Of a DNA stretch of 21,637 bases, positions 9,302 through 19,055 are shown in pieces. The stretch's first letter is position 1; the number at the start of each line of letters is the position of its first letter. The translations under genes were made by a program, and so were the position numbers. The stretch spans positions 1 to 21,637 of IMG/VR virus record IMGVR_UViG_3300010885_015134; one strand, written 5' to 3'. The DNA comes from a virus. The notes under the pieces were generated by a model, which worked only from the letters and a program-made list of their open reading frames with translations, did no database searches and had not been told where the DNA came from.

Positions 9302-9322
9302 GTGTTTGAAGCGGTTAGAAAG

Positions 9323-9350
9323 AGCCTCCATTCGTGGGGGCTTTTTTTTT
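9323..9350 (+). terminator. strong intrinsic terminator after capsid/tube genes
   Basis: An 8-bp stem (AGCCTCCA at 9323-9330 pairing with TGGGGGCT at 9335-9342, one G-T wobble) closes a TTCG tetraloop and is followed by nine T residues (9342-9350). It lies 21 nt after the tail-tube stop and insulates the abundant head and tube transcripts from the genes downstream. Confidence 0.9.
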
Positions 9351-9378
9351 GGCACAAAATGAACATTCTGTATATTAA
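9348..9378 (+). promoter_or_regulatory. possible promoter directly behind the terminator
   Basis: A TTTG at 9348-9351, formed by the end of the terminator T-run, is followed after exactly 19 nt by TATATTAA at 9371-9378. The Bacteroidetes consensus is TTTG-N19-TAnnTTTG. The -33 box and the spacing are perfect, but the last two bases of the -7 box are not. It would restart transcription toward the portal operon, with a very short or absent leader before the ATG at 9383. Confidence 0.35.
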
Positions 9379-9778: not shown

Positions 9779-11762
9779 TTTAATGGTAATTAAGCTGATA
9801 AACAGCGCACCACCTGTATTTAAGGAGGTGAAAAACCACGATAGCACTAAGCCCTGGGTTATATTTGGTGAGGGTAATAATTACCCCGATTACCTTGTTG
9901 CCTTGCTTAATGGCTCGGCAAAGCATAACGCTATTATTACAGGCAAAGTTCAGTACATTACAGGTAAAGGATTAGAGGCTAAAAAAGATAGTGTTAACGC
10001 AGAAAGTGTAAACACCTACTTAGACTTAGTTAACCCTTACGAAAGTGGCGAAGATGTTCAGTATAAGTCTGTAATGGACTTAGAGGTATTTGGCGGTTTT
10101 TATTGGAAGTTTATTTTTGACCGTGTCGGTAGATTAAAATACATTACTCACATACCCTTTGCAAAGGTTAGAACTAACAACGATTGTTCAGAGTATTACA
10201 TATCGGATAAGTGGGAGAAGTCAACCCGTTTAGCTGCAAGAGATGTTGAAACAGTACAGGCTTACAACGGTATAAACAAAGGCGTTAAAATGTATGCTTA
10301 TAAGTTGTACCGACCTAAAATGGGTAACGAGCCTGATGTATACCCTTTGCCTGATTATGTTGGTGCAGTTCCGTATATCAATATGGATATGGAGGTGGCT
10401 AACTTTCACCTCAACAACCTAAAGAATGGTTTTGTAAGTAGCACACTTATTTCATTCCACAATGGAGAACCAACAGAGGAGGCAAAGAATAACATAGAGG
10501 CACAATTCAAAAACAAGTTTGCAGGTACCAACAACGCAGGTAGGTTTATTCTTTCATTTACTCCTCCAAACGTACAAGCCCCAACAATTGATACGTTAGC
10601 ACCAAGCGACTTAGATAAACAGTTCCTTGAGTTAAATAAACAAATCCAACAAGAGATATTTAGTGGGCATAAGATACCAAGCCCTGAGTTGTTTGGAATA
10701 CCAACAGAGGGTGCATTAGGAGATAGGAATGCTACCGACCTTAAATATGAGTTGTTTAAAAAGACTTATGTACAGGCAAGGCAGAAAGCAATGGAGGATA
10801 ATTGGAACTTTGCGTTGCAGTTAACTAGCATTGGTGGCGAGGTAGAGATTAAAGAATTTGCACCGCTTGATGTTGTTTATTCAGAGCAATTACTTACTTC
10901 AATCTTAACTAAAGATGAGTTAAGAGAACGCATAGGACTTGAGGCTATCCAAACCACCGAGACAGGTAACAATATTGTTGATGCATTAACTACATTAAGC
11001 CCATTATTAGGCAATGCCATATTAGGCAATGCCATATTAGGCAACTTGACTACAAATGAAGTAAGGAGTATAGTAGGGTTGCCACCGATACCAGAGGGCA
11101 ATGTTTTAGATAAAGTACCTATTAGTGCCGACCCCTCGCCTATTCAAATGGCTAATGAAAGAGATGTTACATCACAAGTAATAAGCCTTTTTGCTAATTG
11201 CGGTAAACCTGCAACCGATTACAACATAGTATCAACCCGTGTTAGAAAGTTCCATAACGATAGCGAAGCAGAACAAGGCGAGAACGATTTGATTAGAGCT
11301 GCATTTGCTGACCTTACAGAGAAAGAAAAACAGGTAGTTGATATACTACGCACAAACCCAGAGATTGCACTACCTGACTTAGCTAAGGCGGTTAAATTGA
11401 CAATTGACAAGCTAACCACAATAATTGATACACTTGCTAAAAACTCTATTATTGAGATTGATGGTGGGCGTATTAACGTGCTAAAGCCCGAAACACCAAA
11501 GGCAGAAATAGTAGTTCGCTATCAATATGCTAAAGCACCAAGAGTACAAGGGGCGGTTATACTACCAACAAGCCGAGATTTTTGCAGGCAACTTATAGAC
11601 CTTGATAGGTTATACACAAGGAACGAAATCAACCTTATCAGCTCACAAGTGGGCAGAGATGTATGGACTGAACGTGGAGGTTGGTACACCAAAAAAGGAA
11701 CAGACACAGCAACGCCTTACTGTAGGCACATTTGGCAACAAGTAATAGCAATCAAACGATGA
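9765..11762 (+). CDS. portal protein with winged-helix and MuF-like C-terminal extension
   Basis: This 665-residue protein is very probably the portal, the dodecameric DNA channel at one capsid vertex. Residues 1 to about 410 show the portal pattern: an N-terminal strand and wing region, a segment at about 215-265 ending in NAGRFILSF, then the helical stem part with FSGHKIPSPELFG near 298. Residues about 414-427 are a tandem ILGNA repeat. Residues about 518-575 (LTEKEKQVVDILRTNP onward) look like a winged helix-turn-helix. Residues about 604-655, from RDFC through GGWYT to CRH at 653-655, look like the end of a MuF-type minor head protein. The start is either 9765 or the ATG at 9783, which has GGAGG 11 nt upstream. 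The stop overlaps the next start (ATGA). Confidence 0.8.
   Translation: MEDNNLMVIKLINSAPPVFKEVKNHDSTKPWVIFGEGNNYPDYLVALLNGSAKHNAIITGKVQYITGKGLEAKKDSVNAESVNTYLDLVNPYESGEDVQYKSVMDLEVFGGFYWKFIFDRVGRLKYITHIPFAKVRTNNDCSEYYISDKWEKSTRLAARDVETVQAYNGINKGVKMYAYKLYRPKMGNEPDVYPLPDYVGAVPYINMDMEVANFHLNNLKNGFVSSTLISFHNGEPTEEAKNNIEAQFKNKFAGTNNAGRFILSFTPPNVQAPTIDTLAPSDLDKQFLELNKQIQQEIFSGHKIPSPELFGIPTEGALGDRNATDLKYELFKKTYVQARQKAMEDNWNFALQLTSIGGEVEIKEFAPLDVVYSEQLLTSILTKDELRERIGLEAIQTTETGNNIVDALTTLSPLLGNAILGNAILGNLTTNEVRSIVGLPPIPEGNVLDKVPISADPSPIQMANERDVTSQVISLFANCGKPATDYNIVSTRVRKFHNDSEAEQGENDLIRAAFADLTEKEKQVVDILRTNPEIALPDLAKAVKLTIDKLTTIIDTLAKNSIIEIDGGRINVLKPETPKAEIVVRYQYAKAPRVQGAVILPTSRDFCRQLIDLDRLYTRNEINLISSQVGRDVWTERGGWYTKKGTDTATPYCRHIWQQVIAIKR
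11006..11044 (+). repeat. 15-bp in-frame tandem repeat inside the portal gene
   Basis: The unit ATTAGGCAATGCCAT occurs at 11006-11020 and 11021-11035 and again in part at 11036-11044. It encodes ILGNA twice and then ILGN. The two full copies are identical, so the duplication is recent or under conversion. It lies in the linker between the portal core and its C-terminal extension. Confidence 0.9.
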
Positions 11763-17258: not shown

Positions 17259-17477
17259 ATGATAAACGCAGACCGATATTTGGCATACATTGAAACCGAT
17301 GGTGAGTTCGAGTTGCAAATGACAGCCGACTTAACTAACGATGACTTGACTGATATTATACTTAATATCTTTGATGCCTACCCAGAACTAAGAACAGGAA
17401 TAATAAACGCAGCGAGTACATTGTTACAGGCACCAGCAAGCCGACCAACTGAAAGCAGAACACCTAACAAAGCATAG
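17259..17477 (+). CDS. small acidic hypothetical protein
   Basis: This 72-residue protein starts 1 nt after the phosphoesterase stop and is the last gene of the late region. It is acidic in the first 45 residues (DGEFELQ, then TNDDLTDIILNIFDAY) and ends in a Pro/Ser/Thr-rich tail. No motif or membrane segment is visible. Its function is unknown. Confidence 0.6.
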   Translation: MINADRYLAYIETDGEFELQMTADLTNDDLTDIILNIFDAYPELRTGIINAASTLLQAPASRPTESRTPNKA

Positions 17478-17482
17478 TATAA

Positions 17483-17517
17483 TAGGCAAAATGTAGCTTA
17501 TTGGTAGCTTTTGCCTA
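17483..17517. repeat. inverted repeat upstream of the small-RNA promoter
   Basis: The perfect 9-bp arms TAGGCAAAA (17483-17491) and TTTTGCCTA (17509-17517) flank 17 nt, in which TAGCTT is also directly repeated. The repeat lies 6 nt after the last late gene and overlaps the -33 region of the promoter that follows. It could be a weak terminator for the late operon, though no T-run follows, or an operator. Confidence 0.55.
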
Positions 17518-17533
17518 ATAAATTGTATATTTG
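17501..17533 (+). promoter_or_regulatory. Bacteroidetes-type promoter for a short transcript
   Basis: TATATTTG at 17526-17533 is a perfect TAnnTTTG -7 box. A TTG at 17501-17503 gives a 22-nt spacing, within the range seen in Bacteroidetes but not ideal. It lies in a real intergenic region, unlike the chance copies inside genes. Confidence 0.5.
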
Positions 17534-17538
17534 AATAA

Positions 17539-17568
17539 ATGTATCTGAACCCGCCAAGTGCGATGTAG
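17539..17568 (+). CDS. nine-codon leader-peptide candidate
   Basis: ATG at 17539 opens a frame of nine codons (MYLNPPSAM) that ends in TAG, just upstream of the terminator hairpin and just downstream of a promoter-like site. That is the layout of a leader peptide, but no controlled gene follows in this direction and the length is well within chance. Confidence 0.2.
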   Translation: MYLNPPSAM

Positions 17569-17581
17569 GATATACCCGTAG

Positions 17582-17612
17582 AGCCTCGATTAAGTCGGGG
17601 CTTTGCTATTTC
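17582..17612 (+). terminator. intrinsic terminator of the small transcript
   Basis: AGCCTCGA (17582-17589) pairs with TCGGGGCT (17595-17602) with one wobble pair around a 5-nt loop, followed by TTTGCTATTTCT. The stem is similar to the one at 9323 (both start AGCCTC), but the T-tract is interrupted, so it should be weaker. The - strand has no T-tract, so it does not serve the HNH gene. Confidence 0.65.
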
Positions 17613-17622
17613 TATATTAATT

Positions 17623-17970
17623 TTATTGTCTAACAAGATAATTATACTTGTATGTTTTTCTTAACCCAGTTACCATAGCGTGAGTTAGGTTTTCTTTTTG
17701 AGTACACCATTCTAAATTGCAAGCCCTATTGTCACGCTTTATACCGTTAATATGATTAATTATAGGTTTATCATCAGGGTTATCAACAAAAAGTATGGCT
17801 ACAACACGATGTAAAGGACTGCAACCTATATATAAATAGGGCAACTTATTTTCAAAAATACGTTTTTCTAATCCATTATCTTTTACTTTATATACGTTAC
17901 CAAAACTTGATACAAAGTAACGAGCCTTACCTATATAAACAGGTTTCCATATTTCTTCTTGTGTTTTCAT
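17623..17970 (-). CDS. HNH homing-type endonuclease with NUMOD4 domain
   Basis: This 115-residue protein is the only clear - strand gene. Residues about 6-35 ([22 protein letters not shown]) are a NUMOD4 DNA-binding element. Residues about 53-98 are an HNH_3 nuclease core: [10 protein letters not shown] with His54, then [17 protein letters not shown] with His73 and Asn81/Asn85, and a [10 protein letters not shown] end. It is a free-standing mobile endonuclease of the kind often inserted between phage gene modules; neither group I intron ends nor an interrupted gene are visible next to it. It has its own promoter with the consensus spacing. Its position between the late and early operons, opposite to both, is typical of a moron-like insertion. 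Confidence 0.9.
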
Positions 17971-17974
17971 ATCA

Positions 17975-18005
17975 CAAATATAGACATTGTAAATATATTT
18001 ACAAA
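17975..18005 (-). promoter_or_regulatory. promoter of the HNH gene
   Basis: On the - strand, TTTG (18005-18002) is followed by a 19-nt spacer and TATATTTG (17982-17975), a perfect Bacteroidetes -33/-7 pair. The ATG at 17970 lies only 4 nt beyond the -7 box, so the mRNA would be leaderless or nearly so. Confidence 0.75.
17988..18003. promoter_or_regulatory. 16-bp perfect palindrome, operator candidate
   Basis: TGTAAATATATTTACA is a perfect palindrome lying in the spacer and overlapping the -33 box of the HNH promoter. It is centred about 40 bp from a related imperfect palindrome over the other promoter, so one repressor or activator could control both. The AT-rich context makes chance palindromes more likely, so this is a candidate only. 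Confidence 0.5.
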
Positions 18006-18043: not shown

Positions 18044-18062
18044 AAAAATGGTTGTATATTTG
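18032..18062 (+). promoter_or_regulatory. early operon promoter
   Basis: TTTG (18032-18035), a 19-nt spacer and TATATTTG (18055-18062) form a perfect Bacteroidetes sigma-ABfr-type promoter. It predicts a start near 18066 and a leader of roughly 18 nt before the ATG at 18084. It drives the whole replication and recombination operon to the right. Confidence 0.8.
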
Positions 18063-18083: not shown

Positions 18084-18311
18084 ATGTATACAGCAACACA
18101 ATTAAAAGCAATTTACCAAGCCTTACGAGGCTTGCAAGCTATCGGTAAGATAGCAGATGAGGTAGGCTTAAGCCGAATTGAACTTAAGCAACAATTCTAC
18201 CCAACGTTAGAAACAAATGTCAACCCAGAGGTTTACAAATGTGCAATCAATTACCTTAAAGAAGAAGGAGTACTCCGAGACATTCAACTATTAAACACAC
18301 TTTTAAACTAA
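18084..18311 (+). CDS. small HTH-like protein, first gene of the early operon
   Basis: This 75-residue protein follows the early promoter. The ATG at 18084 is chosen because the earlier in-frame ATG at 18048 lies upstream of the -7 box and would not be transcribed. Residues about 18-40 (IGKIADEVGLSRIELKQQF) fit a helix-turn-helix: a short helix, the turn around Val-Gly-Leu, then a recognition helix. A second helix pair follows (NPEVYKCAINYLKEEG). Such small DNA-binding proteins at the head of an early operon are usually regulators, so control of the palindromes just upstream is a reasonable guess. It could equally be a host-modifying or replication accessory protein. Confidence 0.55.
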   Translation: MYTATQLKAIYQALRGLQAIGKIADEVGLSRIELKQQFYPTLETNVNPEVYKCAINYLKEEGVLRDIQLLNTLLN

Positions 18312-18315
18312 GACT

Positions 18316-18654
18316 ATGGCACTCGAATACCAATTAGCCGAGTTAATCGGCACAGCGCAAACAGACGAGCAGTGGAAAAATGCTATGGCAGCTTATGAGA
18401 TTACCTCTTTTCGCCTTAATGATGATGAAAAAGAACGCATACGCAAGTTGTTATCTGAAAGGAACGAGGCTATTACCAAGCAAGCATACAAGCACCTTGA
18501 CTTAGCCTTTGCTATCCGTAAAGAGTTCGGCATACAAAACAACATTGTTAAGCCGGTAGAGAGCGACGGTACGCCAATGGTAGAAGATTTTACCGACGAG
18601 GCAATAACAGCCGACAACGTAGCCAAAGTAGCAAGCACCTTAATACTGAAATAA
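18316..18654 (+). CDS. hypothetical early protein
   Basis: This 112-residue acidic, mostly helical protein starts 4 nt after the preceding stop and ends in a TAATG junction with the DnaA-like gene. It has a charged central helix (NDDEKERIRKLLSERNEAI) and an acidic C-terminal third (VEDFTDEAI). No signal peptide, membrane segment or known motif is visible. The tight coupling to the DnaA-like protein suggests a replication role, but nothing proves it. Confidence 0.55.
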   Translation: MALEYQLAELIGTAQTDEQWKNAMAAYEITSFRLNDDEKERIRKLLSERNEAITKQAYKHLDLAFAIRKEFGIQNNIVKPVESDGTPMVEDFTDEAITADNVAKVASTLILK

Positions 18655-19055
18655 TGAGAGCAGAATTATTTGTAGGGTTGCCAAAGTTTGTGCAACAGTC
18701 AGTAGTGCTAAGAGTACCGTTAAGGCTATCAAAAGAACTAACTGATATTAACACCTTTATACGGTTTATATGCGAAAAGAGGGCTATACAGCATTCCGCA
18801 TTAATAAGCAAATGTAGACAAAGGCATTTAGCCGAAGCAAGGCAATGGGTAATGTATTACTACACCAAATACCAACGTGATACCAAGCAAGATGTTTTGC
18901 CACTATACGCTATTGGTGCTTGCTTAAATAAAGACCACGCCACAGTAATATATAGCATAAAAAACGTTGAAAACCTATTGCTTACCGATAGGAAAAAACG
19001 TGAAGAATTTGAGGGATTGTATCACACCATTAAAACAGAATATAAAGCAGAATGA
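18654..19055 (+). CDS. DnaA domain IV-like DNA-binding protein
   Basis: This 133-residue protein carries the DNA-binding domain of the DnaA initiator without its ATPase. The core is at about residues 48-115: a helix with SKCRQRHLAEARQWVMYYY, a linker, then IGACLNKDHATVIYSIKNV, with Gly88 and DHATV at 94-98. In DnaA the matching parts are the R-x-R-x-x-x-x-A-R helix and the DHTTV signature that reads DnaA boxes. The N-terminal 45 residues are basic and not recognised. It may mark a phage origin, recruit host replication proteins or block host initiation. It lies in the early operon upstream of the recombination genes. A start at the TAATG junction is well supported. Confidence 0.8.
   Translation: MRAELFVGLPKFVQQSVVLRVPLRLSKELTDINTFIRFICEKRAIQHSALISKCRQRHLAEARQWVMYYYTKYQRDTKQDVLPLYAIGACLNKDHATVIYSIKNVENLLLTDRKKREEFEGLYHTIKTEYKAE

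Follow-up and report, generated by a model that had tools for sequence, protein, structure and literature searches.

In the window analyzed here, which is one virus record from IMG/VR and 21,637 bases long, a TAnnTTTG box and a hairpin lie between the late and the early genes, and the question is whether they form a transcription unit of their own or whether the hairpin simply marks the end of the late operon. By homology the virus is probably a Bacteroidetes phage, since its portal protein resembles those of Nonlabens phages, its phosphoesterase those of Flavobacterium phages and its exonuclease that of a Riemerella phage. A sequence-only reading had described the locus as an orphan promoter–terminator unit and as a small RNA or attenuator candidate. 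Its placement of the locus at the boundary between the two modules is correct, with the late stop at 17477 and the early genes from 18084. The adjoining claim, that no plus-strand gene follows for about 470 nt, holds in that the next ATG is at 18084, but the stretch is not empty, as an HNH gene occupies its minus strand (Table 1).

Table 1. Coordinates of the features at the late–early boundary of the window and position of related units in other phage contigs.
Feature	Position	Strand	Remarks
Metallophosphoesterase / DNA repair exonuclease, 387 aa	16094–17257	+	phrog_704, E = 9.6e-47; close to the late operon end
Last late gene, 72 aa, no assigned function	17259–17477	+	~50% identical homologues in relatives
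Inverted repeat TAATAGGCAAAA...TTTTGCCTAATA	17480–17520	+	−14.0 kcal/mol; abuts the late stop codon; missed by the sequence-only reading
TTG, candidate −33 element	17501–17503	+	22 nt (N22) ahead of the 17526 box
TATATTTG, candidate sigma-ABfr −7 box	17526–17533	+	matches TAnnTTTG
Predicted short RNA, ~70–75 nt	17538–17612	+	5′ end predicted from the G at −5, 3′ end from the hairpin and its tail
Terminator hairpin, 13 bp, weak U-tract	17578–17606	+	core AGAGCCTCGATTAAGTCGGGGCTTT at 17580–17604
HNH homing-type endonuclease (NUMOD4 + HNH_3)	17623–17970	−	convergent with the late genes; absent from relatives' junctions
Early-promoter box TATATTTG	18055–18062	+	first early gene from ATG 18084
Unit in L202			beside phosphoesterase phrog_284
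Two tandem units in L218	8097–8290 of reverse complement	−	between phosphoesterase (phrog_221) and early genes
Two similar units, L201 and L212 (contig IMGVR_UViG_3300043470_000543)			each ~55 nt before a different phosphoesterase gene (phrog_704 and phrog_221)
Units in L209 and L226			phosphoesterase phrog_221; unit on the other strand

Results

The hairpin probably ends the late operon

Within the gap, the most stable 32-nt fold reached −19.5 kcal/mol, compared with −8.2 ± 2.1 in shuffled sequences, none of which (0/500) folded as well, and the hairpin at 17578–17606 is not due to chance. An intrinsic terminator had been proposed about 50 nt past the box; the hairpin stands, but it makes a weak terminator of the classical intrinsic type (terminator score d = −7) because its tail is TTTGCTATTTC. 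No T run directly follows the stem, whereas relatives carry TTTTTATTTT or TTTTTTATTT at this position and score d = 27–34.

The outer stem, AGAGCCTC...GGGGCTTT, is identical, both G-U pairs included, to the stem of a second terminator in the window (9321–9344), located behind the capsid-region genes. This post-capsid terminator (9321–9353, plus strand) is strong, with a T9 tail and d = 38, and is kept in four relatives, in which the upper stems differ but remain paired. The window hairpin also has 24 of 25 nucleotides in common with that of L104; this near-identity falls short of establishing descent, the stem being used by many phages. Given how common the stem is among phages, its sharing proves little by itself.

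Six distinct junctions from the same phage family were compared (L002/L011, L003/L012, L004, L005/L009, L014/L016 and L019). All six have a textbook terminator directly 3′ of the last late gene, followed in most by a conserved early promoter region. The window hairpin, GC-rich and located 3′ of the last late gene at the position conserved in these relatives, probably also ends the late operon, and part of what had been called the "least explained element" is thus ordinary. A lack of conservation of promoter and hairpin in relatives had been named as one possible refutation, and conservation was found for one half of the pair: the terminator recurs at the same place in 6/6 junctions, but a TAnnTTTG box precedes it in 0/6. 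The HNH gene is likewise found in none of the six, and the sequence 17478–17622 has no match in them.

A mobile link between the locus and the HNH gene was considered and rejected, as HNH relatives occur everywhere and have no hairpin in common. The HNH gene has its own TATATTTG box (17975–17982, minus strand), which stops 4 nt short of the start codon, so that a leaderless mRNA is possible. The early promoter region contains palindromes, TTGTAAATATATTTACAA at 17987–18004 of the window and GTTTGATNATCAAAC in the relatives (L011 3920–4003 and equivalents), where mostly two TACATTTG-type boxes lie 32 nt apart; these palindromes are likely the operator of an early repressor. Further into the early genes, one at 18654–19055 encodes a DnaA C-terminal domain (Bac_DnaA_C), which hints at a phage replication origin nearby.

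A candidate promoter box of the early-gene form precedes the hairpin

The perfect TAnnTTTG box reported at 17526 was confirmed, and the sequence there also satisfies the stricter TAHHTTTG consensus. Across the whole window, TAnnTTTG is no more frequent than in shuffles, with 30 copies against an expectation of 30.5, and at least one copy within 100 nt before the hairpin arises in 6–7% of shuffles; taken alone, the box has a 6–9% chance of arising and is not clearly beyond chance. Requiring in addition a TTG 17–23 nt upstream of a box ahead of the hairpin lowers the chance probability to 0.007 (shuffles). The 11-mer TTGTATATTTG spanning the box recurs without change at the early promoter (18052–18062) and in the unit of phage P12024S described below. 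A position-weight matrix derived from the early boxes of relatives, too weak to be relied on, ranks the 17526 box thirteenth in the window, above the two gene-linked boxes.

In Flavobacterium johnsoniae, mapped transcription starts place the G of the box at −5 (PMC6847099), and by this rule the predicted start is 17538. Between the late stop codon and the box lies the inverted repeat listed in Table 1, possibly a late-mRNA hairpin or an operator in the promoter spacer.

The predicted RNA is structured, apparently non-coding and without a homologue outside its record

The stretch between box and hairpin is GC-rich. The predicted RNA of ~70 nt has a fold z of −3.4, and its length, fold and non-coding character fit the criteria for small RNAs of 30–500 nt (PMC7366714). 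The nine-codon ORF that had been noted, MYLNPPSAM, is present at 17539–17568, but it is trivial: ORFs as long or nearly so arise in 25–40% of shuffles (at least 8 codons, 25%), and it therefore carries no evidential weight. A start at 17538 would also make it leaderless, and only 5.5% of mRNAs in Flavobacterium psychrophilum are of that kind (PMC9723704). Coding by MYLNPPSAM is not supported.

Searches of all collections by pattern, blastn and nhmmer, and of the relatives' whole contigs, returned no homologue of the whole unit. None of the Rfam 15 covariance models scored above gathering, the weak rimP and rnk_pseudo matches being caused by the hairpin, and a tRNA/tmRNA search gave nothing. 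When the body was paired with the starts of the phage genes, 80 of 100 shuffles did as well and no target stood out.

Similar units recur beside phosphoesterase genes

On the evidence of the relatives' junctions and the post-capsid stem, we had at first read the locus as nothing more than the terminator of the late operon, with a poor U-tract; a hairpin-only scan of IMG/VR viral contigs (pattern AGAGCCTCGN7CGGGGCTTT) led us to revise this view. Among the 104 copies retrieved, 22 have TATATTTG 45–54 nt upstream, the spacing in the window being 54, and all 22 belong to one lineage, L102; outside it the scan found three boxes only, all inside coding sequence. The L102-lineage unit lies directly 3′ of a 331-aa metallophosphoesterase gene (phrog_221) and is followed by a spanin gene and early genes, a neighbourhood that matches that of the window unit.

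Pooling of two scans gave 30 units of this lineage, 15 of them distinct. The box is present in all, and the sequence 5′ of it differs. Their bodies keep AGTAGTTT at the 5′ end and TTTGG near the 3′ end, separated by a stretch that has gained and lost nucleotides; changes in the stem are compensatory (G-C to A-T, A-T to C-G). In L102 (8162–8210) and its relatives, a second TAnnTTTG lies directly 3′ of the terminator and the spanin ATG falls exactly at the expected +1, from which a leaderless mRNA is predicted for the spanin lipoprotein.

A second pattern scan, which required the box, returned 78 matches; they demonstrate the existence of such units, not their enrichment. It added further groups, several of which adjoin phosphoesterase genes (Table 1). 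Two isolates carry such units. In Flavobacterium phage 11b, phosphoesterase gene 51 is flanked by a unit on either side; in Nonlabens phage P12024S, a single unit lies slightly ahead of phosphoesterase gene 16. In Snork6-1, a box and terminator lie two genes past the phosphoesterase gene, the box within coding sequence.

The bodies of the units outside the window are U-rich (AGTAGTTTT, CATAGTTTT, TTTGGTTAA) and end in full U-tracts. Some resemble each other across lineages (A with L160, G with H, and 11b with H2; p = 0.0025–0.0075). The window body bears no likeness to the body of any other unit (p about 0.1–1.0) and lacks the U-rich character with a CATAGTTTT- or TTTGGTTAA-like motif (p about 0.1 or more). 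The U-rich pattern matched host genomes eight times, and none of the three Flavobacteriales matches examined contains such a unit; no bacterial genome carrying the phosphoesterase was found. In L084, the unit is followed by some 480 nt in which no gene is evident (~10935–11380), and a long-range stem, GTCGCACTT...AAGTGCGAC, with a terminator marks this stretch as a second structured-RNA candidate, which has no Rfam match.

Boxes are enriched upstream of phage terminators

A scan that selects for the box, as the second one does, cannot show enrichment. We therefore built a neutral set from all terminators with d ≥ 5 in 105 Bacteroidetes-phage loci, excluding the units by which the loci had been retrieved and removing near-duplicates (n = 53). 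A TAHHTTTG starting 28–88 nt upstream on the same strand precedes 8 of the 53 terminators, against 1.6 in shuffles, and none of 1000 shuffles reached 8. For the exact TATATTTG at the same distance the count is 5 of 53 against 0.23 (0/1000). Without phage 11b, 6 boxes remain against 1.5 expected (2/1000 shuffles), and the opposite strand has 2. The set is small, and of its 8 boxes two or three fall within coding ends. By these counts about 20% of TAHHTTTG boxes would be false, and a smaller share of TATATTTG boxes; judged from such statistics, a box 28–88 nt before a terminator in a Bacteroidetes phage is, on balance, probably functional.

Discussion

We propose that 17526–17612 is a short independent transcription unit, probably specifying a small non-coding RNA, and that it uses the late-operon terminator as its own; we rate the chances of this proposal as about even. 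The best reading of the unit is that it is of the kind that many Bacteroidetes phages have next to their metallophosphoesterase gene. The host polymerase with its primary sigma factor would initiate at about 17538 from a sigma-ABfr-type promoter, and transcription would end in the U-rich tail past 17606, giving an RNA of ~70–75 nt with a body of ~40–45 nt, and late transcripts arriving from upstream would stop at the same hairpin. If it accumulates, the product may be a regulatory small RNA of the 3′-end kind, which shares the terminator of the preceding operon.

The window unit has its box 54 nt before the hairpin, within the 28–88 nt that define the family, and lies near a metallophosphoesterase gene with a single 72-aa gene between. 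Box, spacing, stem and neighbourhood agree and the body differs, for which reason we favor the view that the window unit probably works like the other phage units and do not claim it as their homologue. The earlier suggestion of a small RNA is thus upheld for the class, by the layout that recurs in several unrelated Bacteroidetes phages, the two isolates and the enrichment in the neutral set, but is unproven for this copy, whose body is an orphan and whose close relatives are boxless. The poor U-tract (d = −7) and the 6–9% chance of a box likewise count against the favored reading, as do the chance-level pairing with phage gene starts and the hairpin-only scan, whose three boxes outside the L102 lineage all lie in coding sequence. 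More tentatively, Bacteroidetes phages may possess, where the late and early modules meet, a fast-evolving small-RNA locus next to the metallophosphoesterase gene, in which promoter and terminator are kept and the body is swapped from lineage to lineage, the window holding one swapped version; we regard this as possible and would not call it probable.

The main competitor of an independent unit is a plain late-operon terminator that keeps late transcription out of the convergent HNH gene and away from the early promoter, with a TAnnTTTG present by chance and no separate RNA. The terminator without a box at all six junctions of close relatives, the stem identical to the conserved post-capsid one down to both G-U pairs, and the chance frequency of TAnnTTTG in the window all speak for it. 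It leaves unexplained, however, the strong enrichment of TATATTTG 28–88 nt before terminators in Bacteroidetes phages and the fact that the box has the same TTGTATATTTG form as the early promoter, and the weak U-tract does not suit it either; we give it a substantial probability that nevertheless stays below an even chance. In another arrangement, 17578–17606 would end the late transcript and the 17480–17520 repeat the HNH transcript, as might be expected where the late 72-aa gene and the HNH gene converge and the stop codon of the former is followed by an inverted repeat. In the direction needed, the U-tracts of both hairpins are poor, and the box is left without a role; we consider this pairing very unlikely.

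The remaining alternatives accept a promoter and assign the short transcript another task. In phage lambda, the PR′–tR′ unit of 6S RNA consists of a promoter closely trailed by a terminator at a phage module boundary, and by analogy the locus could make a constitutive short RNA until a phage factor allowed read-through into the genes behind. The window promoter likewise closely precedes its terminator at such a boundary, the anatomy (promoter, ~70 nt, imperfect terminator) fits, and the weak U-tract would favor read-through. Unlike in lambda, no antiterminator is known or was identified among the genes, and the window (18055), phage 11b (30457) and the L102 lineage each have a second promoter past the terminator; read-through is not needed, since the downstream genes have their own promoters. 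The next 350 nt of the window are antisense to HNH. We consider antitermination very unlikely. The attenuator of the sequence-only reading, with MYLNPPSAM as leader peptide, finds no support: a short ORF does stand ahead of the hairpin, but it is of the chance-level, leaderless sort described above, the fold shows no notable competing hairpin, and no same-strand gene is in reach, the gene at 18084 following its own TATATTTG box. We consider it extremely improbable.

Taken singly, the window unit is a modest find, and the recurrence of such units beside phosphoesterase genes is the interesting part. A limited literature search found no earlier description of this recurrence and no paper on non-coding RNAs of Bacteroidetes phages, which seem almost unstudied. 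The recurrent units, including those of the isolates 11b and P12024S, offer concrete predicted 5′ and 3′ ends. For the isolates, starts are predicted some 5 nt past the G of TATATTTG (11b 30326 and 28595; P12024S 10174), with ends in the U-tract behind the hairpin and RNA lengths of 50–110 nt; if the reading is true, phage terminators in Bacteroidetes would often be coupled to a promoter of their own.

Among known host systems, Bacteroides thetaiotaomicron has intergenic and 3′-UTR-derived small RNAs, such as GibS, known from RNA-seq, and those derived from 3′ UTRs may start independently yet end at the upstream gene's terminator (PMC7366714). The window unit resembles them in its candidate sigma-ABfr box and short predicted length; where they have an intrinsic terminator, it has a beyond-chance hairpin with a weak tail (d = −7). 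It differs from these chromosomal RNAs in being phage-borne and predicted, with no target found. With the independent transcribed regions of F. psychrophilum, such as Rfp18 (PMC9723704), which belong to a Flavobacteriaceae host, it has in common a promoter of the TAnnTTTG type and a short transcript that stands alone, predicted in the present case; no sequence relation to them was found, and the unit is without a homologue outside its own record. Compared with the phage units of the L102 lineage, 11b and P12024S, whose bodies are U-rich and whose U-tracts are full, the window unit has an unrelated body and a poor U-tract. Its stem core is nevertheless common to the L102 type, and with all three it shares TATATTTG, a short body, a terminator, a metallophosphoesterase neighbor and the position at the late/early boundary.
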